From NCBI GenBank assembly GCA_030141605.1, contig JAQGDQ010000466.1, positions 62,001-126,000 of the forward strand: a stretch of DNA of 64,000 nt, given 5' to 3'. Position 1 is the first letter of the stretch; every line of letters starts with the position of its first letter. The position numbers and the translations under genes were made by a program. This document shows positions 25,220 to 63,184 of the stretch, piece after piece. Source of the stretch: Tubiluchus corallicola. Lineage: Eukaryota; Priapulida; Priapulimorpha; Priapulimorphida; Tubiluchidae. Below the pieces are notes generated by a model. The model did no database searches and was not told where the DNA came from. It saw only the letters and a program-made list of their open reading frames with translations.

Positions 25220-25475
25220 TTCAGAAACTTTCGAATAGCGAGGCTATTATTGTCAGCTTATCACTCGTTATTAAATTCCAGACAAAATTATTTGGGATTA
25301 AAATCCTTCTTGGTGTGCAGGGAGTAACCTGCCACTCAGGTAAACACTTCAAATGGTGAGGCTATTAATGTCAGCTTATCAATCACTGTTATATTCCAGA
25401 CAAAATTATTGGGGATTAAAATTATTCTTTGTGTGCAGGGAGTAACCTTCCTCATAGGTAAACATCAGCTCGAAT
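25220..25475 (+). repeat. r1 118-bp array, two units
   Basis: Units begin near 25230 and 25347, with the same palindromes as at 16.6 kb. The second unit ends in a degenerate CTTCCTCATAGGTAAAC and breaks directly into the r2 array. Confidence 0.85.
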
Positions 25476-38970: not shown

Positions 38971-41330
38971 TAAAATGTGGGAAAATATTTTTCTTTGCTT
39001 CTAAATGCGCATGAAACTTATCCACCCATTTAAAGTAAACAATGAAACTTGAAATAACTTCATGAATGTGTTAAAAGAGCAGATGCTGTCAAGCGCGAGT
39101 CTGTATTTACACAAATGTGTAGAAAATTTCTTGTGGCCCAAAATGTTTATTTACTCTAAAATCCAGGGCGTAAGCAGATTTTTAGAGTTTTCTTATCACA
39201 GCATCACAGCTTATCGCAGTATGTAGTTAAACTTAAACTGTGTTCCGCTAGTTTGTAATTTTACCTAATAATTTTGCAGTTTTAGCAGGCGACTCTAGCG
39301 CTTCGAACTAACAACCTACTGGTGTTATGTTGATTGTTAAATATTTTGTGGTACAATTTTTAGTGTCAACTTTAAAATATATTTCATTTGCAAAGAACAT
39401 TATTGACAAAAATGTCACCCCTTTTTACGAAAATACAATAACATGTGCACGCCCCCACTAAGAAGACCTTGAACGGAGGTAGTTCACCTAATAGCAAGAA
39501 CGAAATTTGAAATTCAGCGAAGAAATTAAAAGCAGGACTATTTGTGATAAAGAGTCCACAAAAATAATAATATTGATATTGAGTTTTAATAATAACATGA
39601 GTTGAGCCAGAGGGTTTATTATCGTAAGGATAAATTTTGTCTTTTCAAAGCAATCATTTTAGATAATCACTCTTTCATATCGAGGAATGTTTGCTCAAGC
39701 TTTTGAGCACTTTTCTGCACCTTATCCAAACAGCAATTCTTATTAGGCAGCCTCTCCTTTATTATAACAGTTAAAGAAACTGGTTTTCACCTGTGTGTTT
39801 GCAAAGCAAATAGTTTGAAAAGCTTTGTATTTCGAAAATTCCAACTCAACTATTTGTGTTCATAATCTTCTCAGTCTTATAAAAACATCACATTGGGCGT
39901 CTCCCAGGGCGTTATATTATTACAAGCAACACTCACAAATAATAAGTTAATATCTGCCAGGTGGCAGCACAAACCAGGTTTTAAATTGAAAAATGGCTTT
40001 TGCTCTCAGTAGACATTTAATAATTAGCAATTCTTATTCAAATTTATAATTCATATTATCTCATTGGAATTCTGTAAAATTTTCTAACCCGATGGCACAA
40101 AACACAAAACACAAACCCCTAACACTAATCTTTTTTATAGTTATTTGTAATCACACATACATAATACAAACAAAAAATATAAACCCTACTGAAAGCCCTA
40201 CTGCGCAGCAGTTCGTGTAGCCCTAGCGGCACAGCATAATCGTCTGTTGTTGTCAAGTACGCTATAGCAGAAGCTGTTCTGACGAAATACACAAGTACAG
40301 TTCTGAGACTTGCGTGGAAAAGTCATTTGCTGTAAAAAAACAAGAACGAACTAGAAAATTCTACAATGCGCAAAAACTTGAGAGGTTTTTATTGAAATAA
40401 GTTTAGCGCACAATATTTTCCGCAAACTTCTAGAGCGCAGAACTTAAGCAGGCGGAGCAAAACTCCTGCTGATCATAGCCGTCAAGGTCATGGCTCTGGC
40501 TGTGATAGACAAGTGCCAGTTTCTGGGCGTGAGCACTTGCTGTCAGACTTTCTGGGCGTGTCATTTTTCGCTATATTCCCACCTGACAACCCAAGCAAAT
40601 CACTTGTGTTGTGATTTCCGTGTGGCGAGTGTGAAAACCTGCAAATAGAGGTAAATTTAGAAATCAGTATTTACACGTCATTAAAAATGAAAGATTTATC
40701 ATCTTCATGTGGAAATGAAATGTGTCCATTTAGCGTTTTACAGAAAGCTTGTTTTTTATAATTTTTAGTGAAATACAAGTTTCAGTGACGTTTGGTGTAA
40801 ATTTCTCTTTAATTTAAAACCACAATATAGTGTGTTTTTGTGTGACAAAATACGTATTGCAAATTTTAATATTTTTTGTTGTTTCCATAATAGTGGCGGA
40901 GTTGCATTTTAGTGAAATAATGTGAATTTGTGAGTCGCGTTCAAGAATCAAGATACCAAGAGTACGGTTGCTTGTTTACTTTATTCACTACATAATAATA
41001 AAATAATTCAATAACCTTATTTTTCTGTAATCATAATTTCTTGCTTTTTTTCAATAAATTTACTCCTTGTGTTCGGTTTCGTTGTGAAACTGCATAATAT
41101 TAATTGTTTGCATGTTATTATTCTTATTAACACTTGATGAAGTATTTTCTGATTTGCTAAAAGCTTTGAGTTTCTTAAAGTTTAAAGTAAATGCCTTTAT
41201 AGTTGGGTTAATATAATTTAAAAATTGTTTAACGAAAATGACTAAAATGATGATAATGTGATAAAAATGAAAATAAAATGACTATAATGATAACAAAATA
41301 TCAAAAAAGAAAATACTTCAAGTAACACAT
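38970..41330. other. non-coding stretch with an r6 fragment at 39.66-39.96 kb
   Basis: 39.59-39.96 kb is an r6 relative (see 32.75 kb). 40.38-40.46 kb weakly matches r8 in inverted orientation. The rest holds no gene that I can see. 40.7-41.3 kb is very AT-rich. Confidence 0.45.
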
Positions 41331-41339
41331 TTTTGGAGT

Positions 41340-42600
41340 TTTCTTGTAGTATTTGGTTCAGAGAAAAACATATGCAAATTAGGCAGACACTTGAGCACTG
41401 CAAAGAGCCTAATTATGTCATTAAAAAGATGGACAAAAATAAATGGATGTTTAGGCTACCAGAATGCTAAAAAGCTCATAGTAATTCAAAAGCTTGAAAC
41501 TTTGCAAAGCGATAGAGCTAGTTAAGATGATAAAATTTGGTTATGGATCAATCGAAATTCGTCGAATTTGACAGCAATTTTTGACAATCGCTAACATTGA
41601 AACTATTACTCTAGAACTACACTGAGCAGCTTGCGCTAAATAAAATTCACTCTTGGTACTTAGATGCTTGTGTAAACGAAAATAAACCTTTTCCTGCAGT
41701 CTGGCCAATGAAACTGTTACAACATTGCAGCACGAATCCCAAAAACTTCGCTGGTCTTACAAAGACGATCTTGAGACTCTAGTTGAAGAATACCCCAAAG
41801 CAATAAATAAGCTCAAATTATTAATAACATGGTTCTAAAACTCACACCATGAAGATTTGAATTGATGTTATTGACTCTTGCTTCTGATTGTATGCTAACC
41901 AAATGAATCTTTGCTTTTTTTGCAAAATTTACAAGCAAAACTGTTGAAAAATATTTAAACTAGAACTCAGTTTATCACATAGTACGGATTCATCCATGTT
42001 GCAACAAAGAAGAGTCGTTTATATCAACAACAATAGTTATTATTTCAGAGGTATTTTGCATGGTATAAGAATTAGTTTTTTCAGTAGATGGGATTTATTT
42101 GGTGTTTTGAGATTTCATGAGCAAGGCTTCTGAAAGCTGTCTTGGCCAAACAAAGTTTTGGTACTGCAGCCATAGTAACAGCTACTCTGACCAGGCTCAA
42201 CGATATTTGACTTTTGGCATAAGTGAGCATTTGCATACCAACAAGCAATCATACTTGCCATAAACCACTCTGTGCAATGAAAATTGCAAGAAAACGTTTT
42301 TCAGTGTTGTCACCTAGAAAATTGTCCAGAAAATAACATGTCCAAATTATGCTGAAATTTGAGTACTGCAAGTTGCGCAATTATGATGTCAAAGAAGATG
42401 GCCGTCTGTTGACCAATATGAAGGGGTATTTAGTCACCAGAAAAGCTGTCTTTGATTTAAATGCATGATACTTTTGGTTGCACAGTGCTAAAATTCATTA
42501 AGGTGATCAATTTTAATATGGAGCCATCCGAAATTCGACCAATATGACTGCAATTTTCGAAATGGCTTACAAAACGGCTGTTGCTAGCTTATAAGGGATA
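41340..42600 (+). repeat. r10: two diverged copies of a roughly 300-bp segment
   Basis: 41.34-41.64 and 42.29-42.60 kb share the order ACTTGAGCACTGCAA/ATTTGAGTACTGCAA, AATTATG..GTCA, AAAGATGG, AC.AGAA, AATTTGGTTATGGA/TTAATATGGAGC and AATTCG.C.AAT.TGAC.GCAATTTT. It lies just left of the GH1 array. No coding. Confidence 0.55.
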
Positions 42601-42660
42601 CATCTTAGCTATCAAAGCATTCAGGATAAAGTTTTTGGTGTCTAAATATAGATATTCAAA

Positions 42661-43425
42661 AATTTGTTGAAAGCTCATGCAGAGGCTTGCCATCTGTACA
42701 TTGACAAATATAAAGATGAACAGAAAGGTATCAATAATTAATTTAGCTGTTTTCATAAATGCAGCTTAAAATTCATAGATACTTTGTATATATTGTATAC
42801 TTACATTTTAAATGTGATATAAAAAGCCTGGGAACTGTAGTATACGGTGCTACTAAAGTAACTGTTGCTCATAAGTTCATTTCTTCTTCTACGCTCATAG
42901 CATTGCAATGCATTGTTAATTTGTAATGATTATTACATAACTTGAATTTTTGTAATGTGTCAAATGGATAAATAAACAAATCTAAAATCTAAAACAAATT
43001 TAACTCAGTTGGACTTAAAGATGTTTTCTGTAGAAATTACTGAAAATTATTGTACTGTTGTTCTAGGATTTTAAAATTGTAAACACAGTATTTCTAAACA
43101 AGTCAATAGGCTGTCATTCGGAATCCAGTGGAATTTAATGGCAAGTCTATTTTTCAGGTGGATTGCAGTCGCAAGACTGGAACCGACTTAATTATCGAGA
43201 ATAACCCTCTAAGACGAGATACTGAACCAGCAGACTTGTGTTAATCATGCAAACAAGCAAAATCAACATTACTACTGATAATTAAATGAGTTATATTAAG
43301 AATTTTTTTATAATAGGTATAATTGGCATTACGCTAAATTCAGCTTGGGCTGAACCACGTGACCCTGACAAAGCAGAAGACAGAGAAGCTAGACAGACAC
43401 ACAAGAGTTTACGCTGGGATGGCAA
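42661..43425 (+). pseudogene. GH1 unit 0 (partial): end of exon B, exon C
   Basis: The left edge of the array cuts exon B; only its last 67 bases (42661-42727, [22 protein letters not shown]) remain before the GGTATC donor. Exon C (43317 to about 43425) reads GIIGITLNSAWAEPRDPDKA, the GH1 segment after strand 5, but a one-base deletion near 43393 shifts the frame before the LGW ending. The unit also carries two downstream segments, X (43346-43803, including the end of exon C) and Y (43804-44260), which are differentially lost in later units. Confidence 0.85.
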
Positions 43426-44470
43426 GTGTTATAGATACATGTAGATAGATTAATAGAAAAAGCAATTTATAGTCGGATTTCTTAGAAGCGTTAATGCAAG
43501 CTGGATCAGCTTTTCTTACTGGCTAAACTTTGAGACCTAAAAAGTTTGAGTTAGGATAACAAATGGATATCCTTCAGATCGTAAGAGAGTTTATGCTTCG
43601 ATAGTAAATGCTGTTTTTATCGTGAAAGTGTTTATGCCATGATGGGGAATAGTATTTCCATGTGGAAAGAGCTTCTGCTGGCATAGTCGAGTCATGTTGC
43701 AACAAGAGAAATGAAATCGAAAGCTGTTCCATAATTGCACATAATTCGCAAAGTCTGAGTGGATACAAATCCACACCCATATGTATTTCCAGTGACTGTC
43801 GAGATAGTAGAAAAATTAAAATGAAAAAACGAATTTAAACTAAACATCAGTTGCATGTTGCTTGAAACGAGGCATCTCTTAAACAACAAAAGGTAGAACT
43901 TGCCTATCTTTTGTCCAACGTACTGAACATCTTGCAGTAGTGCTGTATTACATTTTTCACTCTCGCAAACATGTGCAACAAGTTTGCAGAATACAACTGC
44001 TGTTGAAAATTTGGATAGTTTGTGATGCTATAAATAGTTGGGTGCGCCGGCCGTTGATTAAGTTTTTATCTGTCACCTAATTATTAGAAACGGTTTTGCA
44101 GTATTAATTGTGTAAAAATGTACAGATTTTGGACTTGAAAATGGGGTAGCGCATGAAAAACCAGCCTGTTTACGTTTGCGCGTGCCCTCACAAAGATATT
44201 ATTACTATGTGTGTATTACTACACTAGATCAATCTACATTACTAAGCTAAAAATCTAAATAATTTTGCATAATTCTGGGATTCTCTCCTCTGTGATTCTA
44301 AACCAGCAACTTTGGCTTCCAGGCAGGCCTGTAACTAAAGTTAGTTTACTGACGTTTTGTCACCCACCTTCACACTTGCAGGGAAAAATGACTGTTTTTC
44401 TCTTAGAATTCCTTTACAGTGAAAAATGCTCTACTTAATTGTTTTATACATCTTATTATCTGTTTCTTAG

Positions 44471-44929
44471 ATGTTGGTATTCAGCCAATGGTGACACTTC
44501 ATCACTGGGATATTCCACAAGTTTTGCAGGAAAAGTATGAAGTTTGGCTGTTTGATGAAATGATTAAGGATTTTAAAAACTTTGCAGATGTTTGTTTTGA
44601 AAACTTTACAGATCGCGTAAGTCTTGAAGCAAAATTTAGCTTTCACAGTTTTTAATTTGTCGTAGTCTAATAAACGTTACATTAAATTTCTGAGTAAGCT
44701 TTTTCATTTATCTTTCCTTTTGAGATTTCTCAAATTATAATTACTTTTAAAATGAAACAGAAACTCTTATTTTTAATCACTATTTCAATGTGTAAGTGGT
44801 GAATGTTTTGCAGAATGTTATAGTTTTAGATAGGCTTTATTATATTACGCTTTTTTGGTATCTTACCTAAATGTTTTAATGTACACATTTGAAAATATTG
44901 TTTTGAAAGAGCGATTTATAATTAGATGC

Positions 44930-44965
<36 letters not shown>

Positions 44966-45992
44966 TTCAATATTGTCACCAATGGAGTTGCCTTTGGCCA
45001 ATAATGTCAGAAAGAGCAAACATGTTATTCTTTGTAAAAGATCGAATTTAAATAAATTTGATCTTATATTATCTTTTTATCTTATTGCCAACATTAATTT
45101 GTATAGGTAAAATTCTGGATAACATTGAATGAACCGTGAATCATAGCGTTGCTTCATTATGGCAATAACTGGGTTGATACTCAAGAGTATGAATGTTCAG
45201 CTGTTGATACTTACATTGCAGGACACAATTTGTTGAAAGCTCATGCAGAGGCTTGCCATCTGTACATTGACAAATATAAAGATGAACAGAAAGGTATCAA
45301 TAATTAATTTAGCTGTTTTCATAAATGCAGCTTAAAATTCATAGATACTTTGTATATATTGTATACTTACATTTTAAATGTGATATAAAAAGCCTGGGAA
45401 CTGTAGTATATGGTGCTACTAAAGTAACTGTTGCTCATAAGTTAATTTCTTCTTCTACGCTCATAGCATTGCAATGCATTGTTAATTTGTAATGATTATT
45501 ACATAACTTGAATTTTTGTAATGTGTCAAATGGATCAATAAACAAATCTAAAATCTAAAACAATTTTAATTCAGTTGGACTTAAAGATGTTTTCTGTAGA
45601 AATTACTGAAAATTATTGTACTGTTGTTCTAGGATTTTAAAATTGTAAACACAGTATTTCTAAACAAGTCAATAGGCTGTCATTCGGAATCCAGTGGAAT
45701 TTAATGGCAAGTCTATTTTGCAGGTGGATTGCAGTGGCAAGACTGGAACCGACTTGATTATCAAGAATAACCTTCTAAGATGAGATACTGAACCAGCAGA
45801 CTTGTGTTAATCATGCAAACAGGCAAAATCAACATTACTACTGATAATTTAATGAATCATGTTCAGAAAATTTTTATAATAGGTACAATTGGCATTACGC
45901 TGAATTCAGCTTGGACTGAACCACGTGACCCTGACCCAGCAGAAGACAGAGAAGCTACTTTCAGCGCACAAGAGTTTACGCTGGGATGGCAA
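44471..45992 (+). pseudogene. GH1 unit 1: exons A, B (stop), C
   Basis: This is the only unit with all three exons at full length. Exon A (44471-44616) follows a TTTCTTAG acceptor and reads VGIQPMVTLHHWDIPQVLQ to NFTDR, ending at GTAAGT. Exon B (45107-45293) reads VKFWITLNEP, then a TGA (45137-45139) where GH1 enzymes have Trp, then on to [14 protein letters not shown]. Exon C (45883 to about 45992) reads IGITLNSAWTEPRDPD...QEFTLGW. These are the segments of a family-1 beta-glucosidase or lactase-phlorizin hydrolase: HHWD lines the sugar site, and the Glu of NEP is the acid/base. Phases fit (0 between A and B, 1 between B and C). The stop in B makes this unit non-coding for a full protein. 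Confidence 0.88.
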
Positions 45993-46589
45993 GTGTTATA
46001 GATACATGTAGATAGATTAATAAAAAAAGCAATTTAAAGTCGGATTTCTTAGAAGCGTTAATGCAAGCTGGATCAGCTTTTCTTACTGGCTAAACTTTGA
46101 GACCTAAAAAGTTTGAGTTAGGATAACAAATGGATATCCTTCAGATCGTAAGAGAGTTTATGCTTCGATAGTAAATGCTGTTTTTATCGTGAAAGTGTTT
46201 ATGCCATGATGGGGAATAGTATTTCCATGTGGAAAGAGCTTCTGCTGGCATAGTCGAGTCATGTTGCAACAAGAGAAATGAAATCGAAAGCTGTTCCATA
46301 ATTGCACATAATTCGCAAAGTCTGAGTGGATACAAATCCACACCCATATGTATTTCCAGTGACTGTCGAGATTTTTGCATAATTCTGGGAAATCTTGAAC
46401 ACCTCTCTCTGTGATTCTAAACCAGCAACTTTGGCTTCCAGGCAGGCCTGTAACTAAAGTTAGTTTACTGACGTTTTGTCACCCACCTTCACACTTGCAG
46501 GGAAAAATGACTGTTTTTCTCTTAGAATTCCTTTACAGTGAAAAATGCTCTACTTAATTGTTTTATACATCTTATTATCTGTTTCTTAG

Positions 46590-47047
46590 ATGTTGGTATT
46601 CAGCCAATGGTGACACTTCATCACTGGGATATTCCACAAGTTTTGCAGGAAAAGTATGAAGTTTGGCTGTATGATGAAATGATTAAGGATTTTAAAAACT
46701 TTGCAGATGTTTGTTTCGAAAACTTTACAGATCGCGTAAGTCTTGAAGCAAAATTTGGCTTTCACAGTTTTTAATTTGTCGTAGTCTAATAAACGTTACA
46801 TTAAATTTCTGAGTAAGCTTTTTCATTTATTTTCCTTTTGTGATTCCTCAAATTATAATTACTTTTAAAATGAAACAGAAACTCTTATTTTTAATCACTA
46901 TTTCAATGTGTAAGTTGTGAATGTTTTGCAGAATGTTATAGTTTTAGATAGGCTTTATTATATTACACTTTTTTGGTATCTTACCTAAATGTTTTAATGT
47001 ACACATTTGAAAATATTGTTTTGAAAGAGCGATTTATAATTAGATGC

Positions 47048-47086
<39 letters not shown>

Positions 47087-48034
47087 TTCAATATTGTCAC
47101 CAATGGAGTTGCCTTTGGCCAATAATGTCAGAAAGAGCAAACATGTTATTCTTTGTAAAAGATCGAATTTAAATAAATTTTATCTTATATTATCTTTTTA
47201 TCTTATTGCCAACATTAATTTGTATAGGTAAAATTCTGGATAACATTGAATGAACCGTGAATCATAGCGTTGCTTCATTATGGCAATAACTGGGTTGATA
47301 CTCAAGAGTAAGAATGTTCAGCTGTTGACACTTACATTGCAGGACACAATTTGTTGAAAGTTCATGCAGAGGCTTGCCATCTGTACATTGACAAATATAA
47401 AGATGAACAGAAAGGTATCAATAATATTAATTTAGCTGTTTTCATAAATGCAGCTTAAAATTCATAGATACTTTGTATATATTGTATACTTACATTTTAA
47501 ATGTGATCTAAAAAGCCTGGGAACTGTAGTATATGGTGCTACTAAAGTAACTGTTGCTCATAAGTTAATTTCTTCTTCTACGCTCATAGCATTGCAATGC
47601 ATTGTTAATTTGTAATGATTATTACATAACTTGAATTTTTGTAATGTGTGAAATGGATCAATAAACAAATCTAAAATCTAAAACAATTTTAATTCAGTTG
47701 GACTTAAAGATGTTTTCTGTAGAAATTACTGAAAATTATTGTACTGTTGTTCTAGGGTTTTAAAATTGTAAACACAGTATTTCTAAACAAGTCAATAGGC
47801 TGTCATTCGGAATCCAGTGGAATTTAATGGCAAGTCTATTTTGCAGGTGGATTGCAGTGGCAAGACTGGAACCGACTTGATTATCAAGAATAACCTTCTA
47901 AGATGAGATACTGAACCAGCAGACTTGTGTTAATCATGCAAACAGGCAAAATCAACATTACTACTGATAATTTAATGAATCATGTTCAGAAAATTTTTAT
48001 AATAGGTATCATTGGCATTATGCTGAATTCAGCT
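46590..48034 (+). pseudogene. GH1 unit 2: exon A intact, B with two stops, C truncated
   Basis: Exon A is 46590-46735 with good splice sites. Exon B (47228-47414) has the TGA after NEP (47258-47260) and a second stop, TAA, at 47309-47311. Exon C starts at 48006 and breaks off after TTCAGCT at 48034, where segment Y is joined directly because X is missing. Within the remnant, the Thr of ITLN is Met. Confidence 0.87.
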
Positions 48035-48605
48035 ATAGTAGAAAAATTAAAATGAATAAACGAATTTAAACTAAACATCAGTTGCATGTTGCTTGAAACG
48101 AGGCATCTCTTAAACAACAAAAGGGTAGAACTTGCCTATCTTTTGTCCAACGCACTGAACATCTTGCAGTAGTGCTGTATTACATTTTTCACTCTCGCAA
48201 ACATGTGCAACAAGTTTGCAGAATACAACTGCTGTTGAAAATTTGGATAGTTTGTGATGCCATCAATAGTTGGGTGCGCCGGCCATTGATTAAGCTTTTT
48301 ATCTGTCACTTAATTATTAGAAACGGTTTTGCAGTATTAATTGTGTTAAAATGTACAGATTTTGGACTTGAAAATGGGGTAGCGCATGAAAAACCAACCT
48401 GTTTACGTTTGCGCGTGCAATCACAAAGATATTATTACTATGTGTGTTTTACTACACTCGATCAAGCTACATTACTAAGCTAAAAATCTAAATAATTTTG
48501 CATAATTCTGGGATTCTCTCCTCTGTGATTCTAAACCAGCAACTTTGGCTTCCAGGCAGGCCTGTAACTAAAGTTAGTTTACTGACGTTTTGTCACCCAC
48601 CTTCA

Positions 48606-49063
48606 ATGTTGGTATTCAGCCAATGGTGACACTTCATCACTGGGATATTCCACAAGTTTTGCAGGAAAAGTATGAAGTTTGGCTGTATGATGAAATGATT
48701 AAGGATTTTAAAAACTTTGCAGATGTTTGTTTCGAAAACTTTACAGATCGCGTAAGTCTTGAAGCAAAATTTGGCTTTCACAGTTTTTAATTTGTCGTAG
48801 TCTAATAAATGTTACATTAAATTTCTGAGTAAGCTTTTTCATTTATTTTCCTTTTGAGATTCCTCAAATTATAATTACTTTTAAAATGAAACAGAAACTC
48901 TTATTTTTAATCACTATTTCAATGTGTAAGTTGTGAATGTTTTGCAGAATGTTATAGTTTTAGATAGGCTTTATTATATTACACTTTTTTGGTATCTTAC
49001 CTAAATGTTTTAATGTACACATTTGAAAATATTGTTTTAAAAGAGCGATTTATAATTAGATGC

Positions 49064-49112
<49 letters not shown>

Positions 49113-50062
49113 TTTTCAATATTGTCACCAATGGAGTTGCCTTTGGCCAATAATGTCAGAAAGAGCAAACATGTTATTCTTTGTAAAAGATCGAATTTAA
49201 ATAAATTTTATCTTATATTATCTTTTTATCTTATTGCCAACATTAATTTGTATAGGTAAAATTCTGGATAACATTGAATGAACCGTGAATCATAGCGTTG
49301 CTTCATTATGGCAATAACTGGGTTGATACTCAAGAGTAAGAATGTTCAGCTGTTGACACTTACATTGCAGGACACAATTTGTTGAAAGTTCATGCAGAGG
49401 CTTGCCATCTGTACATTGACAAATATAAAGATGAACAGAAAGGTATCAATAATATTAATTTAGCTGTTTTCATAAATGCAGCTTAAAATTCATAGATACT
49501 TTGTATATATTGTATACTTGCATTTTAAATGTGATATAAAAAGCCTGGGAACTGTAGTAAATGGTGCTACTAAAGTAACTGTTGCTCATAAGTTAATTTC
49601 TTCTTCTACGCTCATAGCATTGCAATGCATTGTTAATTTGTAATGATTATGACATAACTTGAATTTTTGTAATGTGTCAAATGGATCAATAAACAAATCT
49701 AAAATCTAAAACTATTTTAATTCAGTTGGACTTAAAGATGTTTTCTGTAGAAATTACTGAAAATTATTGTACTGTTGTTCTAGGATTTTAAAATTGTAAA
49801 CAGAGTATTTCTAAAGAAGTCAATAGGCTGTCATTCGGAATCCAGTGGAATTTAATGGCAAGTCTATTTTGCAGGTGGATTGCAGTGGCAAGACTGGAAC
49901 CGACTTGATTATCAAGAATAACCTTCTAAGATGAGATACTGAACCAGCAGACTTGTGTTAATCATGCAAACAGGCAAAATCAACATTACTACTGATAATT
50001 TAATGAATCATGTTCAGAAAATTTTTACAATAGGTATAATTGGCATTATGCTGAATTCAGCT
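48606..50062 (+). pseudogene. GH1 unit 3: exon A without acceptor, B with two stops, C truncated
   Basis: About 95 bases before exon A, including the TTTCTTAG acceptor, are deleted; ACCCACCTTCA joins straight to ATGTTGG at 48606. Exon A itself (48606-48751) and its donor are intact. Exon B (49256-49442) has TGA at 49286-49288 and TAA at 49337-49339, as in unit 2. Exon C (50034-50062) is cut at the same TTCAGCT as in unit 2. Confidence 0.87.
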
Positions 50063-50741
50063 ATAGTAGAAAAATTAAAATGAATAAACGAATTTAAACT
50101 AAACATCAGTTGCATGTTGCTTGAAACTAGGCATCTCTTAAACAACAAAAGGGTAGAACTTGCCTATCGTTTGTCCAACGCACTGAACATCTTGCAGTAG
50201 TGCTGTATTACATTTTTCACTCTCGCAAACATGTGCAACAAGTTTGCAGAATACAACTGCTGTTGAAAATTTGGATAGTTTGTGATGCCATCAATAGTTG
50301 GGTGCGCCGGCCGTTGATTAAGCTTTTTATCTGTCACTTAATTATTAGAAACGGTTTTGCAGTATTAATTGTGTAAAAATGTACAGATTTTGGACTTGAA
50401 AATGGGGTAGCGCATGAAAAACCAGCCTGTTTACGTTTGCGCGAGCCCTCACAAAGATATTATTACTATGTGTGTAATACTACACTAGATCAATCTACAT
50501 TACTAAGGTAAAAAGTCTAAATAATTTTGCATAATTCTGGGAAATCTTGAACACCTCTCTCTGTGATTCTAAACCAACAACTTTGGATTTCAGGCAGGCC
50601 TGTAACTAAAGTTAGTTTACTGACGTTTTGTCACCCACCTTCACACTTGCAGGGAAAAATGACTGTTTTTCTCATAGAATTCCTTTACAGTGAAAAATGC
50701 TCTACTTAATTGTTTTATACATCTTATTATCTGTTTCTTAG

Positions 50742-51204
50742 ATGTTGGTATTCAGCCAATGGTGACACTTCATCACTGGGATATTCCACAAGTTTTGCAG
50801 GAAAAGTATGAAGTTTGGCTGTTTGATGAAATGATTAAGGATTTTAAAAACTTTGCAGATGTTTGTTTTGAAAACTTTACAGATCGCGTAAGTCTTGAAG
50901 CAAAATTTAGCTTTCACAGTTTTTAATTTGTCGTAGTCTAATAAACGTTACATTAAATTTCTGAGTAAGCTTTTTCATTTATCTTTCCTTTTGAGATTCC
51001 TCAAATTATAATTACTTTTAAAATGAAACAGAAACTCTTATTTTTAATCACTATTTCAATGTGTAAGTGGTGAATGTTTTGCAGAATGTTATAGTTTTAG
51101 ATAGGCTTTATTATATTACACTTTTTTGGTATCTTACCTAAATGTTTTAATGTACACATTTGAAAATATTGTTTTGAAAGAGCGATTTATAATTAGATGC
51201 GTTA

Positions 51205-51238
<34 letters not shown>

Positions 51239-52170
51239 TTCAATATTGTCACCAATGGAGTTGCCTTTGGCCAATAATGTCAGAAAGAGCAAACATGTTA
51301 TTCTTTGTAAAAGATCGAATTTAAATAAATTTTATCTTATATTATCTTTTTATCTTATTGCCAACATTAATTTGTATAGGTAAAATTCTGGATAACATTG
51401 AATGAACTGTGGATCATAGTGTTGCTTCATTATTGCAATAACTTGGTAGATACTCAAGAGTATGAAAGTTCAGGTGTTGATACTTACATTGCAGGACACA
51501 ATTTGTTGAAAGCTCATGCAGAGGCTTACAATTTGTACAAGGACAAATATAAAGATGAACTGAAAAGTATCAATAATTAACTTAGCTGTTTTTATAAATG
51601 CAGCTTAAAATTCATAGATACTTTGTACATTTTAAGTGTGATATAAAAAGCATTGGAACTGAAGTATATGGTGCAACTAAAGTAACAGTTGCTCATAAGT
51701 TAATTTCTTCTGCTATGCTTATAGCATTGCAATGCATTGTTAATTTGTAATAATTATTACATAACTTGAATTTTTGTGATGTGCCAAATGGATCAATAAA
51801 CAAATCTAAAATCTAAAAACAAATTTAATTCAGTTGGACTTAAAGATGTTTTCTGTAGAAATTACTGAAAATTATTGTACTGTTGTTCTAGGATTTTAAA
51901 ATTGTCAACACAGTATTTCTAAACAAGTCAATAGGCTGTCATTTGGAATCCAGTGGAATTTAATGGCAAGTCTATTTTGCAGGTGGATTGCAGTGGCAAG
52001 ACTGGAACCGACTTGATTATCAAGAATAACCTTCTAAGATGAGATACTGAACCAGCAGACTTGTGTTAATCATGCAAACAGGCAAAAACAACATTACTAC
52101 TGATAATTTAATGAATCATGTTCAGAAAATTTTTACAATAGGTATAATTGGCATTATGCTGAATTCAGCT
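50742..52170 (+). pseudogene. GH1 unit 4: exons A and B open, C truncated
   Basis: Exon A (50742-50887) and exon B (51380-51566) are both open with usable splice sites, the only unit where this is so. Exon B is the second sequence type: Trp is kept after the acid/base Glu, but NEP has become NEL, and the tail reads AHAEAYNLYKDKYKDELK. Its following intron also differs (shorter around the TATACTTACAT block). Exon C (52142-52170) is cut as in units 2, 3 and 5. A product of A and B alone would be about 110 residues without a nucleophile. Confidence 0.86.
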
Positions 52171-52848
52171 ATAGTAGAAAAATTAAAATGAATAAACGAA
52201 TTTAAACTAAACATCAGTTGCATGTTGCTTGAAACTAGGCATCTCTTAAACAACAAAAGGGTAGAACTTGCCTATCGTTTGTCCAACGCACTGAACATCT
52301 TGCAGTAGTGCTGTATTACATTTTTCACTCTCGCAAACATGTGCAACAAGTTTGCAGAATACAACTGCTGTTGAAAATTTGGATAGTTTGTGATGCCATC
52401 AATAGTTGGGTGCGCCGGCCGTTGATTAAGCTTTTTATCTGTCACTTAATTATTAGAAACGGTTTTGCAGTATTAATTGTGTAAAAATGTACAGATTTTG
52501 GACTTGAAAATGGGGTAGCGCATGAAAAACCAGCCTGTTTACGTTTGCGCGAGCAATCACAAAGATATTATTACTATGTGTGTAATACTACACTAGATCA
52601 ATCTACATTGCTAAGGTAAAAAGTCTAAATAATTTTGCATAATTCTGGGAAATCTTGAACACCTCTCTCTGTGATTCTAAACCAACAACTTTGGATTTCA
52701 GGCAGGCCTGTAACTAAAGTTAGTTTACTGACGTTTTGTCACCCACCTTCACACTTGCAGGGAAAAATGACTCTTTTCTCATAGAATTCCTTTACAGTGA
52801 AAAATGATATACTTAATTGTTTTATACATCTTATTATCTGTTTCTTAG

Positions 52849-54274
52849 ATGTTGGTATTCAGCCAATGGTGACACTTCATCACTGGGATATTCCACAAGT
52901 TTTGCAGGAAAAGTATGAAGTTTGGCTGTTTGATGAAATGATTAAGGATTTTAAAAACTTTGCAGATGTTTGTTTTGAAAACTTAACAGATCGCATAAGT
53001 CTTGAAGCAAAATTTAGCTTTCACAGTTTTTAATTTGTCGTAGTCTAATAAACGTTACATTAAATTTCTGAGTAAGCTTTTTCATTTGCCTTTCCTTTTG
53101 AGATTCCTCAAATTATAATTACTTTTAAAATGAAACAGAAACTCTTATTTTTAAACACTATTTCAATGTGTAAGTGGTGAATGTTTTGCAGAATGTTATA
53201 GTTTTAGATAGGCTTTATTATATTACGCTTTTTTGGTACCTTACCTAAATGTTTTAATGTACACATTTGAAAATATTGTTTTGAAAGAGCGATTTATAAT
53301 TAGATGCGTTATTATTATTATTATTATTTTCAATATTGTCACCAATGGAGTTGCCTTTGGCCAATAATGTCAGAAAGAGCAAACATGTTATTCTTTGTAA
53401 AAGATCGAATTTAAATAAATTTTATCTTATATTATCTTTTTATCTTATTGCCAACATTAATTTGTATAGGTAAAATTCTGGATAACATTGAATGAACCGT
53501 GAATCATAGCGTTGCTTCATTATGGCAATAACTGGGTTGATACTCAAGAGTATGAATGTTCAGCTGTTGACACTTACATTGCAGGACACAATTTGTTGAA
53601 AGTTCATGCAGAGGCTTGCCATGTGTACATTGACAAATATAAAGATGAACAGAAAGGTATCAATAATTAATTTAGCTGTTTTCATAAATGCAGCTTAAAA
53701 TTCATAGATACTTTGTATATATTGTATACTTACATTTTAAATGTGATCTAAAAAGCCTGGGAACTGTAGTATATGGTGCTACTAAAGTAACTGTTGCTCA
53801 TAAGTTAATTTCTTCTTCTACGCTCATAGCATTGCAATGCATTGTTAATTTGTAATGATTATTACATAACTTGAATTTTTGTAATGTGTCAAATGGATCA
53901 ATAAACAAATCTAAAATCTAAAACAATTTTAATTCAGTTGGACTTAAAGATGTTTTCTGTAGAAATTACTGAAAATTATTGTACTGTTGTTCTAGGATTT
54001 TAAAATTGTAAACACAGTATTTCTAAAGAAGTCAATAGGCTGTCATTCGGAATCCAGTGGAATTTAATGGCAAGTCTATTTTGCAGGTGGATTGCAGTGG
54101 CAAAACTGGAACCGACTTGATTATCAAGAATAACCTTCTAAGATGAGATACTGAACCAGCAGACTTGTGTTAATCATGCAAACAGGCAAAATCAACATTA
54201 CTACTGATAATTTAATGAATCATGTTCAGAAAATTTTTACAATAGGTATAATTGGCATTATGCTGAATTCAGCT
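52849..54274 (+). pseudogene. GH1 unit 5: donor of A mutated, B with stop, C truncated
   Basis: Exon A (52849-52994) ends in CGC|ATAAGT, so the GT donor is lost by one substitution. Exon B (53470-53656) is of the first type with TGA at 53500-53502 but without the second stop. Exon C (54246-54274) is cut at TTCAGCT. The intron carries AAAGAAGTC, shared only with unit 3. Confidence 0.86.
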
Positions 54275-54954
54275 ATAGTAGAAAAATTAAAATGAATAAA
54301 CGAATTTAAACTAAACATCAGTTGCATGTTGCTTGAAACGAGGCATCTCTTAAACAACAAAAGGGTAGAACTTGCCTATCGTTTGTCCAACGCACTGAAC
54401 ATCTTGCAGTAGTGCTGTATTACATTTTTCACTCTCGCAAACATGTGCAACAAGTTTGCAGAATGCAACTGTTGTTGAAAATTTGGATAGTTTGTGATGC
54501 CATCAATAGTTGGGTGCGCCGGCCGTTGATTAAGCTTTTTATCTGTCACTTAATTATTAGAAACGGTTTTGCAGTATTAATTGTGTAAAAATGTGCAGAT
54601 TTTGGACTTGAAAATGGGGTAGCGCATGAAAAACCAGCCTGTTTACATTTGCGCGTGCCCTCACAAAGATATTATTACTATGTGTGTATTACTACACTAG
54701 ATCAATCTACATTACTAAGATAAAAAGTCTAAATAATTTTGCCTAATTCTGGGAAATCTTGAACACCTCTCCTCTGTGATTCTAAACCAACAACTTTGGA
54801 TTTCAGGCAGGCCTGTAACTAAAGTTAGTTTACTGACGTTTTGTCACCCACCTTCACACTTGCAGGGAAAAATGACTGTTTTTCTCATAGAATTCCTTTA
54901 CAGTGAAAAATGCTCTACTTAATTGTTTTATACATCTTATTATCTGTTTCTTAG

Positions 54955-55388
54955 ATGCTGGTATTCAGCCAATGGTGACACTTCATCACTGGGATATTCC
55001 ACAAGTTTTGCAGAAAAATGATTAAGGATTTTAAAAACTTTGCAGATGTTTGTTTTGAAAACTTTACAGATCGCGTAAGTCTTGAAGCAAAATTTTGCTT
55101 TCACAGTTTTTAATTTGTCGTAGTCTAATAAACGTTACATTAAATTTCTGAGCAAGCTTTTTCATTTATCTTTCCTTTTGAGATTCCTCAAATTATAATT
55201 ACTTTTAAAATGAAACAGAAACTCTTATTTTTAATCACTATTTCAATGTGTAAGTGGTGAATGTTTTGCAGAATGTTATAGTTTTAGATAGGCTTTATTA
55301 TATTACACTTTTTTTGGTATCTTACCTAAATGTTTTAATGTACACATTTGAAAATATTGTTTTGAAAGAGCGATTTATAATTAGATGC

Positions 55389-55460
<72 letters not shown>

Positions 55461-56462
55461 TTCAATATTGTCACCAATGGAGTTGCCTTTGGCCAATAAT
55501 GTCAGAAAGAGCAAACATGTTATTTTATGTAAAAGACCGACTTTAAATAAATTTATCTTATATTATCTTTTTATCTTATTGCCAACATTAATTTTTATAG
55601 GTAAAATTCTGGATAACCTTGAATGAACTGTGGATCATAGTGTTGCTTCATTATTGCAATAACTTGGTAGATACTCAAGAGTATGAAAGTTCAGGTGTTG
55701 ATACTTACATTGCAGGACACAATTTGTTGAAAGCTCATGCAGAGGCTTACAATTTGTACAAGGACAAATATAAAGATGAACTGAAAAGTATCAATAATTA
55801 ACTTAGCTGTTTTTATAAATGCAGCTTAAAATTCATAGATACTTTGTACATTTTAAGTGTGATATAAAAAGCATTGGAACTGAAGTATATGGTGCAACTA
55901 AAGTAACAGTTGCTCATAAGTTAATTTCTTCTGCTATGCTTATAGCATTGCAATGCATTGTTAATTTGTAATAATTATTACATAACTTGAATTTTTGTGA
56001 TGTGCCAAATGGATCAATAAACAAATCTAAAATCTAAAAACAAATTTAATTCAGTTGGACTTAAAGATGTTTTCTGTAGAAATTACTGAAAATTATTGTA
56101 CTGTTGTTCTAGGATTTTAAAATTGTCAACACAGTATTTCTAAACAAGTCAATAGGCTGTCATTTGGAATCCAGTGGAATTTAATGGCAAGTCTATTTTG
56201 CAGGTGGATTGCAGAGGCAAGACTGGAACCGACTTGATTATCAAGAATAACCCTCTAAGATGAGATACTGAACCAGCAGACTTGTGTTAATCATGCAAAC
56301 AGGCAAAATCAACATTACTACTGACAATTAAATGAATCATGCTAAGAAAATTTTTATAATAGGTATAATTGGCATTACGCTGAATTCAGTTTGGACTGAA
56401 CCACGTGACCCTGACAAAGCAGAAGACAGAGAAGCTACTTTCAGAGCACAAGAGTTTACGCT
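54955..56462 (+). pseudogene. GH1 unit 6: exon A with 26-base deletion, B open, C cut at array end
   Basis: Exon A (54955-55074) lacks 26 bases after TTTTGCAG, which shifts the frame. Exon B (55601-55787) is the same NEL type as unit 4. Exon C (56363-56462) is long again and reads TLNSVWTEPRDPDKAEDREATF, but the unit leaves the repeat at 56462, just before the LGW end and donor. The ATT microsatellite is longest here (55390-55461). Confidence 0.86.
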
Positions 56463-57126
56463 CTTGATCTGAAGTGGGATATTTCACTTTATTTGGTGTA
56501 ACTCTTTGTCAGCATTTTGAGAATTCAATGATATTTACCTTCAGGTAATTAGTTACATAGCTAATTTTCTGGGGGGGGGGAAACTTTAGGCAAAAGCATA
56601 TCGAAAGAGCATAGCATCTTCCATTGAGTGAATTTGTTGATTATTCAGTTAAATGTGTTTTGACCATTAAATAGTTTTCCTTCAGATTTTGTAAACGCTA
56701 TAATTCCAGGTGTATGCCGACTTGAATAACTGATTTGTCCTTGATTGCACTGTAAACGTTTCAAGTGCTAGTGAAACCGTTATTTCGTTGCAGGCTTGTC
56801 AAAAGTCTTGGCCTAGATTTTGTATATTCCTAGTTTGCTACTTTGTTTGATTTGCACTCACAATACCCTGATATACAGTATATTTGTGTGTCTGTATGCG
56901 CTGAGCCAGTGTGTGTCTGTTGAATGATAGATCTATAAATATTCTGCAAGCATCAAGGTTTTCACTGTAACTACTATTTGTCCTATATTCTGTGATTAGA
57001 ATGTTACTCGTTTACGTGGAGAGTGAATTGCAGCAATTAACTGTACCTGTCTTAAAGCAGATAACTGCTTAACGTAGGTTAACTTTACCACAGGGTACAA
57101 ATAAGGCTGGAATAATTAATATAATC
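56463..57126. other. leader region left of the SCAN-gypsy
   Basis: Unassigned; a run of ten G lies at 56571-56580. If the gypsy element at 57.1 kb had a 5' LTR it would lie here, but I could not find a matching partner on the right side. Confidence 0.35.
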
Positions 57127-58030
57127 ATGAATGCACAGGGTAACCCTGTGACGACAGGTGAACCTAGTGTTAGACAGAAAGAAGTTGGAGGTGTGTCAAG
57201 TACACCGAGTGTGTCTGATCAACTGTTAGCAACTCCCAATCCTGACGACCTTACCTTGCATTCTGCTATTAATAGTAAACCTGCGAATGGTGAGATGACA
57301 AAACGTTCAGTACCTCTTTATAACATTGAAAAGTTAGCAGAGCGCGAGAAAGAGCGTAAATGGGAACGGGAACGTGAAGAAAGGCGTGAACGTATGCAAC
57401 GTGAAGAGAGAGAATGGGAAGGTTAGCGAGAGGAACGCAGAGAACGAATGCAGAAAGAGCAGTATCAATTTGAGTTGAGGCTTCGTGAGCTGGGTGACAC
57501 AGGTTCCTCCTCAATAATCTGATTGCATGCTCACTACAACCGCATTTCGAATACCTCGAACGCAAGATTACAATGTTGTAAAGAAGACTTTGTTAGCTGC
57601 CTATGTCCTCTCCAGTGACATGTATCTTGAGCGTTTCCGCAAGATTACTCCGAGACCGGACGAAACATTCCGTCAGCTTTTTGTACGGCTTGATCGTGCC
57701 CTGCAAGAATGGCTGAAAGCCGAAGAAGCGTCCACCTTTGAGAACGTTTGTGAACTGCTATGTATTGAGCAGGCCCTTACATTGATGCCCCGTGAAATGA
57801 GCATTTGGGTCAGGCAGCAAGGGCAGAAGACAATGGAAAAGGTGGCAGAGAAAGCTGATTTGTACATTGCTTCTAATGCATTAGGTACGACTTCGAAAAA
57901 TGGTTTTGGAAAAAAGATGAATAATGATGTCATGAAGAAGATACTTCATGTCATGAAGAAGATACTGTTATACTTTTGGAGAACTTGGACACAAAAGGAC
58001 CCAGTGCCCGAAACGCCCCAATTATGGTGA
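57127..58030 (+). pseudogene. gypsy Gag with coiled coil and SCAN-like domain
   Basis: The frame starts MNAQGNPVTTGEPSVRQKE and contains a strongly charged helix (EREKERKWEREREERRERM) up to a TAG at 57424-57426 that interrupts it. After a frame change the segment from 57527 reads YLERFRKITPRPDETFRQLF, then LQEWLKAEEASTFENVCELL, then CIEQALTLMPREMSIWVRQQ. This follows the helix pattern of the SCAN domain (PR...F..L, WL.PE, LL.LEQFL.LP, WVR), which is related to retroviral and gypsy capsid C-terminal domains. A 21-base duplication (about 57926-57965) disturbs the region after it. No zinc knuckle is visible. Confidence 0.78.
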
Positions 58031-58067
58031 AACAAGTGGCAAGAGTAGAAATCCTATTCGTCAATTC

Positions 58068-58512
58068 TTGGCCAAGACAGGAGATACTGGTCACCAATCC
58101 AGTCACTCTACTAATTCACCTGCGCCTATGCCTGAGTGTGTGCCTGAGTCTGATGAGTTTACCTTTAAAGCTAAAATTAATGGTATCTGGATCGATGGTA
58201 TAAGAGATTCTGGTGCTAGAGTGAGTTTGATCCAACCACGTTATGTCCGTCCAGAACAGTTTCTACAAAGTGAAAATTATACCAAAATTTTGTTGTAATT
58301 GAGCTGTTGTTGAGGTGGAATGTACGCTAGTCAATGGTAGATTGAGAGTGGCAGTGTCTGATAGTCTTCCTGTGCCCTTTTTGCTAGGTAATGATTACCG
58401 AACTGCTGTGACACCATTTAACATTAAACAGAGTTTTAGTACACCACCTAAACCACCATCAGTTGATTTAGAATGTATCACACCTGAAAATTCAGGTCTC
58501 ACATTGTTCTGA
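58068..58512 (+). pseudogene. gypsy aspartic protease remnant
   Basis: Frame 58068-58298 reads FTFKAKINGIWIDGIRDSGA, with the retropepsin active-site triad DSG, then SLIQPRYV. A stop and frameshift follow at 58296. Frame 58315-58512 has LPVPFLLGNDY, the second half of the fold. It is followed by VTRSKAKQLQAEAK (58575-58620), the linker that normally precedes reverse transcriptase in this gypsy group. Confidence 0.75.
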
Positions 58513-58764
58513 TGAGCTTGTGAGTGGAAATAAAAATGTCTCGAAACAAGCTGGTAATTCGAAAAAAGCTTTTGCAGTAACCCGATCAAAAGCAAAGCAG
58601 CTACAAGCAGAAGCCAAGAGCGACAAACAATTACTTAGTAGTTTAAACGCTGATCAAAAAGCGGACAAAAATATTGCATCTGGCGTAAATACTAAAGCAC
58701 AGCAACAGCAGCTGTTTTATATTACCTGTCACGTGAAAAGTGCGATGCTCAACCCAGCGAACTT

Positions 58765-59580
58765 TTGGTTTTCCCCAAGTCTAGACGTTTGGCAGTCTTA
58801 TCTTTGGCACATGATGCGCACATGGCTGGTCACCTGGGCATCCGTAAAACTACCCAACGTGTTTTACAAGAATGTATTTGGCCTAGAGTTAAACGTTCAG
58901 TGATACAATATTGCCGCTCGTGTGTCCCATGTCAGAAAACGGCGAGAATTAAACGTTCTGATAAAGCGAAATTAAAGCCATTGTCCATACCTTCGATTGC
59001 ATTTCGAACTATAGCCATGGATATTATTGGGCCTATGAAGAGAACACCCTCGGGGAATAAGTATGCCTTAGTAATAATAGATCATGCTACGAGGTACTCC
59101 GATTGCTACCCGCTGCCAAATATTGAAACTACTACTGTTGTTAAAGCTTTATTGCAATACATATGTCGGCATGGCATCCCGCGTGAGATTTTAACCGACA
59201 GAGGTACTCAATTCACATCACAGTTAATCCATGATTTAGAACAGGCCTTGGGTGTAAAGGGAATTTTCACTTCCCCATATAACCCGCAGGGGAATGGGTT
59301 AACTGAGAGATTTAATGGCTCATTAAAATCCTGCATTTTAAAAGTCATGCAAAATGAGAAATATTTACCCTGGGATGAAACTATTCCGTTTATTTTATTT
59401 GCTTTCCGGGAAGTACCCCAAGAATCCACTGGGTATGCCCCATTTCAGTTAGTTTATCTTTTTCTAATTGCAATTGCCCTGACCTATTGTGTTAAAAGTC
59501 TTGATATCAAGACTTTTAGGCCTTATTCTACCATTAATTATTGTCAATTTTTACAAAAGAAATTTAGTTTAACGGTATAA
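58765..59580 (+). pseudogene. gypsy integrase, core intact, C-terminus replaced
   Basis: The zinc-binding part is H16 and H23 (AHDAHMAGHLG) with C53 and C56 (CRSCVPCQ), numbered from 58765. The catalytic core has D86 (AMDIIGP), D145 (LTDRGTQF) and E181 (LTERFN), so the DDE triad is complete. After STGYAPFQLV (residue 230) the frame turns into unrelated LFLIAIALTY sequence, so the C-terminal domain is missing. Reverse transcriptase and RNase H, normally about 2 kb between linker and integrase, are absent: barely 100 bases separate VTRSKAK from the integrase start. The element cannot move by itself. Confidence 0.85.
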
Positions 59581-61340
59581 TGACAGAAGCCAACTTGTTC
59601 TGAAATCAGATTTCAGCTGTACATTCAATGACACTGTGTCATGTTCCGCCCTACATTTAATAGTTCTCACATTATGCTTATGCAACATTAAGCCCTATTC
59701 ATACTGCATGTTCAATTAATTGATATGTATGATATTTAGCTACTGGCAGTGATAGTTATTTGTATTATTAATTACTGATATTTTGTTAGGATGTAGGCAC
59801 CTACTAACAAACCCCTTTTGAATTCCCTCTGACCCACTCTTGTCTGCCCTACCGTGGCTGTAATGCAGTGTCTAAGTCAAGGTTAATGATAGTGCACAGG
59901 TGAATAATATTATAGCTGTTTAAGCAAGTGGCTTCTCGATGCACTTCGTTCAACACCGTTTAGATACAGACGGCAACTTGACACAGAACGAGAAATTCGT
60001 TTACTCTGTGAAGTTATATGTTTTGGAAGAGAAATGCTGTACTAGAAAGTTTCGCACAAGATATGGTGTGTAATGTACATGGTGATACTGTGAGAGCCTA
60101 GTTGTTGTAAGCTACGGTCGTCAACCAGAGTTATCCCAGAGATGCTGGCCTGCAGTCTGCAGTAGTGAAGTTAGCCACTGACTGACAAATGTATCGACCT
60201 ACTACAGAACCAAATCCATGGTGGTAACAGGTACTTTTTGGTTTTGTTACGATCGTAACTAACGTCACACTGATAACGTAAACATCACGTATACTAGCCT
60301 AATGTTCTTCGATGCTACTTGCTGGGTCAAGACTAATCGGTAGTTTCTCTGACGAAGTTTGGAATCTCAACTGTATTCACACGCAGAGGTTATATTACGA
60401 CGTATTGCTACCGTTCTATAAACTGTTATACAACACTAGGTACAGAGTGGGCAAACATGAACTTTATGCAAACGCATATGCCCTACTAACCCCAAGCTTT
60501 GTCAATATTGCCATATCTTTGTTATTACTGAACTTTTGCTTAAATCGAATCACTTTGGAATTTGCTAATGATCAAATTGCTTCATTAATTATTTTAATGT
60601 CTGCCATTTGATCTTTCTTTTTTCTTCAAATCCATTAGTGTATAGAGTGCAAATAGGCCATAGTCCCCCGTATTTTTAACATCAGCATTAGGCCGATCTG
60701 CATCCATACATTTAGTGACTAGCTCCCTCCTGTTATGAGATGTAAAACTAACGCAGCATGTCCCTCTTTGATTCCCCTATAGGAAATACAAGATCAGGGT
60801 CATCACACACTGTTTATGCATTACTACTATATCATGTGATTGAAGCCACGTAGACAAAATTTTGGCTGTTCAGTTCGCCAAGGTATCCCGCTTTAAGTTG
60901 TCGAGTTAAGCGGACGTTCTCATGTCATAAAATGATGGTTTAGTAGTAATAGTGCTTGCTTGCAGAAAAGCGATCAGTCTACATGGTTACGACAGAGACG
61001 ATAGTTGCATTCCAGCGATGATACTTACCTGCTGCTGATTATATTTTCCTGACGCCGATGATACATCACTTATTAAAGAGTCTACTTATCAGTTGTCGAT
61101 GATATCTGCTGCTGATGACATTTACCTCTATTTACCCGACGCTGATGATAATGTCCTTGGTGCTTCCATGTTGTGATTACGAAATTGGTGATCCTTACCT
61201 TGTGACGAGTGCAGGAGCTTGGATGCTACCCTATTTTGGCGTCATATAAGTGGAGGCGTGTACATTAGGAGTCGTCAAAGTTTGGAGACGTCGTCCACGT
61301 AATCAGATCCATGAAGAGGTAGTGTAGTCAACCGTTCTAT
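59581..61340. other. non-coding stretch right of the gypsy element
   Basis: TGGTGGTAACAGG at 60220 resembles a primer-binding-site start but has no element behind it. 61.0-61.16 kb has scattered GATGAT/CTGATGATA words. The open frame at 60312-60611 has no family signature. Confidence 0.4.
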
Positions 61341-61344
61341 GGTG

Positions 61345-62184
61345 CAAAAACAATGAAGAAAATTGAACGCAAAAACAAAGAAGAAAACCGAACACAAAAA
61401 CAAAGATGAAACCGAACGCAAAAACAAAAAAGAAAACCGAACGCAAAAACAAAGTAGAAAACCGAACGCAAAAACAAAGAAGAAAACCGAATGCAAAAAA
61501 AGAAGAAAACCGAACGCAAAAACAATGAAGAAAACCGAAAGCAAAAACAAAGAAGAAAACCGAACGTAAAAACAAAGATGAAAACCGAACGCAAAAACAA
61601 TGAAGAAAACCGAACGCAAAAACAATGAAGAAAACCGAACGCAAAAAATGAAGAAAACTGAACGCAAAAACATTGAAGAAAACCGAACGCAAAAACAATG
61701 AAGAAAACCGAACGCAAAAACAATGAAGAAAACCGAACGCAAAAACAAAGAAGAAAACCAAACGCAAAAACAAAGAAGAAAACCGAATGCAAAAACAATG
61801 AAGAAAACCGAACGTAAAAACAAAGAAGAAAACCGAACGCAAAAACAAAGAAGAAAACCGAATGCAAAAAATGAAGAAAACTGAACGCACAAACATTGAA
61901 GAAAACCGAACGCAAAAATGAAGAAAACTGAACGCAAAAACAATGAAGAAAACCGAACGCAAAAACAATGAAGAAAACCGAACGCAAAAATGAAGAAAAC
62001 TGAACGCAAAAACAATGAAGAAAACCAAACGCAAAAACATTGAAGAAAACCGAACGCAAAAACAATGAAGAAAACCAAACGCAAAAACAAAGAAGAAAAC
62101 CGAACGCAAAAACAAAGAAGAAAACCGAACGCAAAAACAAAGAAGAAAACCGAACGCAAAAACAATGAAGAAAACCGAACGCAG
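61345..62184 (+). repeat. 24-bp tandem array, about 35 units
   Basis: The unit is GAAAACCGAACGC plus AAAAACAAAGAA, with CAATGAA variants and 21-22-base short forms. The plus strand is almost free of T. Because the unit lacks stop complements, all minus-strand frames stay open for over 250 codons; the resulting Phe/Leu/Cys-rich proteins are artefacts. Confidence 0.95.
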
Positions 62185-62309
62185 ACAGCTGATGTATGAA
62201 TAAGAGAAGGAAAGTTATTGGTCAAAACTCTAAATATGGTAACAGAACTGATTCATTAAATGATCTTGCATTAAATTTGTGTCATAATAAACAGTATTAA
62301 AATATTTGT

Positions 62310-62720
62310 TTAGCGCTAGGCCAAGTAAAGTGTTGCAATAGCCTCGCTTGAATTCACTAAAAATGCAACACAGCCACAATTTATTTCTCAGGCAAAACGA
62401 GCATGAATGCTCTATAATACGCGAATGATCTCAGCACGAAGAATAATTTACTTCTCACAGAAGCGAAATTTTCACATTTTGAATGGAATCACACATTTTG
62501 CACTCACAATCTCTTACTGCACTTAATATTATCGCAAAAAACTTTAGTTGCAGTTTCATTGCAAATGTCATAGGAGGATTGCACGGTAAATGATTTCAAC
62601 TGTCTCATTCAAGGATATGAATCGCATGAGAGTGATAGGAATTTGTCATGGTGAAATACCAGACGGTATGTTTAGCAACTGTTTAGCTCCGCCCAACGTT
62701 CACACTCACTAGAAATTTTC
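62310..62720. repeat. dispersed repeat r8, copy 2
   Basis: Follows 30.43-30.84 kb in order: AGCGCTAGGCCAAGTAAAGT, ATAATACGCGAATGATC, GCACGGTAAATGATTTC, CATGAGAGTGATAGG and CTCACTAGAAATTTTC. The 22-bp array starts directly at its right end. Confidence 0.5.
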
Positions 62721-62723
62721 CAG

Positions 62724-62870
62724 AAAGATCGCCAAATACTGCGGAAAGATCGCGCAAAAACTGTGCAAAGATCGCGCAAATACTGCGGAAAGATCGCGCA
62801 AAAACTGTGCAAAGAACGCGAAAAAGCTGCGCAAACATCGCGCAAATACTGCGCAAAAACTGTGTAAGGT
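62724..62870 (+). repeat. 22-bp tandem array with 44-bp alternation
   Basis: Six to seven units of AAAGATCGCGCAAAAACTGT followed by GC alternate with units ending TACTGCGG. The CpG-rich GATCGCGC core is unusual in this AT-rich window. Confidence 0.88.
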
Positions 62871-62879
62871 TGCACAAAA

Positions 62880-63180
62880 CTGAGTCGTTTAGCGAAGATA
62901 TTAGCTGTATTAGTTAAATTTGTTAGAATATTTTGAAAGTTTATGAATAAGAAATCACACTAATTTTTGCAAATACCTTAAAAAAGTGTTACAATTTTGA
63001 AAAATTCTTTAAGCTCATTTTCATTATTTGTATAATTTTGCTGTGTTCTGATAAGGGCAAAATTTTTGCCAATGAAATATTTCAATTCGGCTATCCCTGT
63101 CGAAGAATGTAAATATTAATTTTACGATCAATAAACCACTGCAACTACTATTACTATATGAGCTGCTACGGATAGAGCTG
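62880..63180. other. non-coding stretch
   Basis: AT-rich, nothing assigned. Confidence 0.35.
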
Positions 63181-63184
63181 ACAA

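Follow-up and report, generated by a model that had tools for sequence, protein, structure and literature searches.

A tandem array of degenerate middle exons from a family 1 glycosyl hydrolase gene in Tubiluchus corallicola

Within the window, the 64-kb stretch of T. corallicola DNA analysed here, a repeat finder and a comparison of the window with itself revealed an array (positions 42661–56462) in which seven units of ~2.1 kb follow one another head to tail, five of them whole and one cut at each edge. The repeat common to all seven units recurs with a start-to-start spacing of 2028–2566 bp according to the repeat finder, and in the self-comparison the units align with one another at >90% identity over stretches of hundreds of bases, the longest exceeding 1 kb, which rules out chance as the source of the array. 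Unit borders were placed at the start of exon A, the first of three exons (A, B and C); with these borders, U0 and U6 are the edge-cut units and U1–U5 the whole ones. The left edge of the array lies inside exon B and the right edge inside exon C.

The window is AT-rich, with a G+C content of 31–40% per 2-kb step, and a scan of its whole length against Rfam gave no family reaching the gathering score. Several other features were observed outside the array. A 390-aa open frame on the reverse strand (406–1575), possibly a carbohydrate sulfotransferase gene, has weak sulfotransferase matches to PF13469 (E 2.6e-5, below the cut-off) and PF00685 (E 4.9e-5, above the cut-off). Two pairs of interspersed repeats of ~1.1 kb, 87–95% identical, are located at 10635–11744/13255–14455 and 23109–24172/33550–34651, and a repeat family with a period of ~118 bp occupies 16621–17218, 25230–25464 and, on the other strand, 63560–64000. 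To the right of the array, a decayed retroelement (57518–59577) includes a frame matching the SCAN domain (PF02023, E 1.2e-14), a sub-threshold zinc knuckle (E 0.047), and then the integrase domains H2C2 (E 3.9e-18) and rve (E 3.3e-15). A reverse transcriptase would not fit in this element, because the gap between its domain blocks is only ~0.4 kb, and no pair of long terminal repeats was found between 56463–57200 and 59000–64000. Finally, a minisatellite of ~0.84 kb (61343–62183) consists of units of ~25 bp, as judged from offsets, with a self-similarity of 88–92%, and its long open frames are not genes.

The exons of the array are best illustrated by U1, where all three lie on the forward strand. 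Exon A (44471–44616) corresponds to the part of the glycosyl hydrolase family 1 (GH1) profile around HHWDIP. Exon B (45107–45293) carries NEP, the GH1 acid/base glutamate motif, and an in-frame stop after it. Exon C (45883–45995) is the sole full-length in-frame copy in the array, although its exact donor is uncertain. Exon A measures 146 nt (120 nt in U6) and exon B 187 nt (67 nt in U0); the splice phase is 0 between A and B and 1 between B and C. Apart from the lesions listed below, both exons have their acceptor and donor sites. When the three exons of U1 were joined, with the stop read as an X residue, the product matched Pfam PF00232 (Glyco_hydro_1) at E 6.6e-38 over profile positions 110–248 of 453, which demonstrates GH1 ancestry; the exon C frame of U1 by itself scores under the curated cut-off (E 0.0013). 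The proposal of an earlier note on this DNA that these are middle GH1 exons in the right order, on one strand and with splice phases matching within a unit is therefore borne out. That note had also described the start of the enzyme and the part with ENG, the GH1 nucleophile motif, as missing from every unit, and indeed neither was detected in any of them. A search with a control likewise detected no other GH1 exon in the 64-kb window.

Among solved structures, the best match of the joined exon product is a two-domain beta-glucosidase, 8in1 (E 2.6e-63), followed by the Klothos (~2e-48), which points to an animal-type GH1 gene as the source. We take 8in1 to be the Aplysia enzyme of PMC10619976. 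In comparison with such animal GH1 proteins, the array retains only ~150 middle residues, its frames are broken and the nucleophile part is undetected. An exact scan of viral_contigs with a 40-base stretch of exon A gave no match, and plasmid sequences yielded only bacterial GH1 matches with <60% identity.

All seven units lie on the forward strand and every one of them has lesions, none having A, B and C all intact. U0 (42661–44469) is cut by the left edge inside exon B, of which 67 nt remain, lacks exon A and has a frame-shifted exon C. U1 (44470–46588) has intact exons A and C and an in-frame stop in B. In U2 (46589–48604), exon A is intact, exon B has two in-frame stops and exon C breaks off after 29 nt. 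U3 (48605–50740) has lost the acceptor of exon A together with ~0.1 kb of intron, has two stops in B and a cut C. In U4 (50741–52847), exons A and B are open, with NEL instead of NEP in B, and C is cut and then reads into a stop. U5 (52848–54953) has AT instead of GT as the donor of exon A, a stop in B and a cut C. U6 (54954–56462) is cut by the right edge inside exon C and has a 26-bp deletion in A and an open B with NEL. The acid/base glutamate is kept in all six whole B exons; the motif reads NEP in four of them (U1, U2, U3 and U5, a stop standing directly after it and a second one being present in U2 and U3) and NEL in the other two. In U2–U5 exon C is cut at the identical base. These broken exons were not mentioned in the earlier note, and they qualify its description of a seven-fold amplification of three exons: there are seven units, but exon A is present six times (once with the 26-bp deletion), exon B six times plus the 67-nt piece, and exon C runs to its expected end in just two units, U1 and, frame-shifted, U0.

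We further compared the exons with the introns for signs of selection. Among the full codons of exons A and B, 18 non-synonymous changes (two of them stops) and five synonymous ones were counted, which does not differ from the neutral expectation of 77.7% non-synonymous changes at a transition weight of 2 (p = 1.0). The base beside the U6 deletion was omitted from this count, and so were the bases that fall in split codons (the last of B, the first two of A). Exons A and B vary about as often as the A–B and B–C introns, with 24/333 and 70/1081 variable sites, respectively (p = 0.62), columns with more than two gaps being dropped. It should be noted that 17 codons vary in exon B and that 13 of these separate U4 and U6 from the other units as one type, so the 23 exon changes are not independent events, and since many differences belong to this type and maybe to one history, the test is coarse. 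Within these bounds, the exon differences fit neutrality and give no sign of constraint; the stops, lost splice sites, indels and the 18:5 ratio speak against an open reading frame under purifying selection. Judged from its sequence, the array is predicted to produce no GH1 enzyme, although a product may be conceivable from U1, where an open A-B-C is barred by one in-frame stop and an uncertain C donor, or from U4, with its open A and B. Of the option raised earlier, a decayed tail of a larger GH1 gene cluster, the decay is supported by the lack of a single intact unit and by the neutral exon ratio; on the putative cluster, the window offers no further detected GH1 exon. A role other than that of an enzyme, for example in supplying regulatory RNA directed against intact GH1 genes or sequence for their conversion, would be permitted by the similarity of the exons and by the exchange between units described below, but it is very improbable for exons that carry stops and differ at a neutral ratio. 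Still less credible is that the array is maintained as a store of middle-exon variants that exchange sequence by conversion with intact GH1 genes elsewhere, or as an RNA source restraining them.

Downstream of exon C, each unit is built from up to three segments in the order X, Y and Z, the last being the intron end ahead of the next exon A. Segment X (43346–43804, forward strand, in U0) comprises the rest of exon C and the next intron, and segment Y (43805–44262, forward strand) follows it. Both are present in U0, X without Y in U1, and Y without X in U2–U5, where X is gone at an identical junction; U6, which stops inside exon C, has only the first ~70 bases of X. The loss of X in U2–U5 and that of Y in U1 adjoin within 2 bp, at 43804/43805 in U0. 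Two independent random deletions would seldom adjoin so closely, which counts against the reading that we prefer below and hints at Y being an inserted element or U0 a recombinant. No significant Pfam match was found for the 128-aa frame of Y (U2 copy). A further possibility is that the unit itself travelled in a mobile element that had picked up part of a gene and then multiplied in tandem; the nearly coinciding X and Y boundaries, as expected of an inserted Y, speak for it, as does the decayed retroelement ~0.7–1 kb to the right of the array. However, the domains of this retroelement are outside the array, three long non-GH1 frames of the unit gave no significant Pfam match, and no inverted repeats of at least 100 bases were found within 40000–60000. 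Moreover, self-comparison detected no match longer than 150 bases between the array and the rest of the window, where a U0–U1 query found a single weak match of 36 bp. A cargo origin is accordingly improbable.

The four of the seven units that share the X scar, U2–U5, derive most simply from one unit. Additional evidence of exchange comes from a 596-bp tract in U4 (51398–51993, forward strand) that is identical to 55619–56214 in U6, pointing to gene conversion or unequal exchange. Sixty-five sites from A to C separate U3 from U6; at all 41 of those inside the tract U4 agrees with U6, whereas at the 24 outside it U4 agrees with U3 at 18, with U6 at five and with neither at one. The order of these sites along A–C in U4 forms nine runs, and as few were seen in 0 of 20000 shuffles. 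Other changes are held in common by U2 and U3 in exon A and by U3 and U4 in Y, and U0 and U6 have the same bases at three B–C intron sites, differing there from U1–U5. Sequence has thus been exchanged between units, as seen from the X scar in U2–U5 and the U4/U6 tract.

Pairwise divergence between units is 1.3–6.9%, in line with the earlier description of units and introns as nearly identical. Pairs of inner units (U1–U5) differ by 1.3–3.4%, pairs with U0 by 2.8–6.9% (lowest for U0–U1, 2.8%), and pairs with U6 by 3.8–6.9% apart from U4–U6, which are only 1.4% apart because of their common tract. The only pairs above 5% are U0–U4 (5.3%) and U0–U6 (6.9%), both with the edge unit U0. Since U4–U6 and U0–U1 fall within the inner range, the edge effect is a tendency with overlap. 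Together, the scar, the tract and the divergence pattern fit unequal crossing-over with conversion. The scar and the tract also lend indirect support to the copy-number option of the earlier note, in the form of a past change in the number of units.

The same differences bear on the possibility that the assembly turned one or two real units into seven, by expansion or by stitching haplotypes together. A mis-joined contig would also make U4 and U6 identical over 596 bp, but the units differ in private substitutions, microsatellite lengths, the 26-bp and ~0.1-kb deletions and the presence of X and Y, and more than two variants occur at once with a divergence of 1.3–6.9%, which is more than two haplotypes of one unit. 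Because the units have private substitutions and indels, expansion of a single unit by the assembler, another of the options considered before, is unlikely for the whole array. Assembly error can hardly explain so many different units, and we consider such an artefact a slim prospect, the count of seven being that of the assembly.

The array consists of head-to-tail copies of a gene part with its introns, as is characteristic of a tandem array of partial gene duplicates. It is, very probably, a partial gene duplication turned into a non-coding pseudogene array, and goes back to an inner piece of an animal-type GH1 gene with several exons. In the scenario that we infer, this segment would have consisted of the end of one intron, exons A, B and C, and the start of the next intron, joined head to tail, and unequal (misaligned) crossing-over among the first copies would have produced a longer array. 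One unit would then have lost X and multiplied, which would explain why U2–U5 carry a common scar, and gene conversion would homogenize the inner units, leaving those at the edges to diverge. As both edges are cut inside exons, the array appears detached from its source gene; this would have come about by later breakage or by a move of the array, so that the flanking exons were probably lost by rearrangement.

An alternative origin, compatible with this partial duplication and leading to the same fate, is that A-B-C was excised as a circle, copied by a rolling-circle mechanism and inserted here as a concatemer. A rolling-circle model is described for satellite repeats in the available text of PMC2543021. 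Such an insertion would explain why the edges fall at arbitrary places within the unit and why flanking GH1 exons are missing, and the edges inside exons B and C do abut DNA without detected GH1 exons; the left and right flanking stretches, when compared, do not match, and the edges have no target-duplication-like bases in common. On the other hand, an array that formed in place and was later broken twice would have the same edges, and no observed feature is specific to a circle. We regard a circular intermediate as possible, though less likely than not.

In worm and fly genomes, partial gene duplicates are comparatively frequent, according to the available text of PMC3449122. Similar to the partial (internal, intragenic) duplicates described there, only part of an ancestral gene was copied in the array and the frames are often broken; different from them, as far as that text goes, the piece lacks both gene ends, was amplified to seven copies, and the copies exchange sequence. 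That tandem arrays undergo concerted evolution is a familiar concept, as the portion of PMC2543021 consulted indicates, and in comparison with the satellite arrays treated there, the units here are of kilobase size, derive from a gene with exons and introns, and are few. A literature search gave no paper on an array of GH1 fragments among the matches listed. By ancestry GH1 and by state a pseudogene fragment array, the locus adds a neat instance to a familiar class. The knowledge of GH1 enzymes is unchanged by it, and for annotators, HHWD and NEP matches at this locus would inflate the GH1 gene count. The array works like a small satellite-like array, and it offers a clear small case of a gene fragment becoming one, in which the spread of a deletion through four units and the passage of a tract from one unit to another can still be read.
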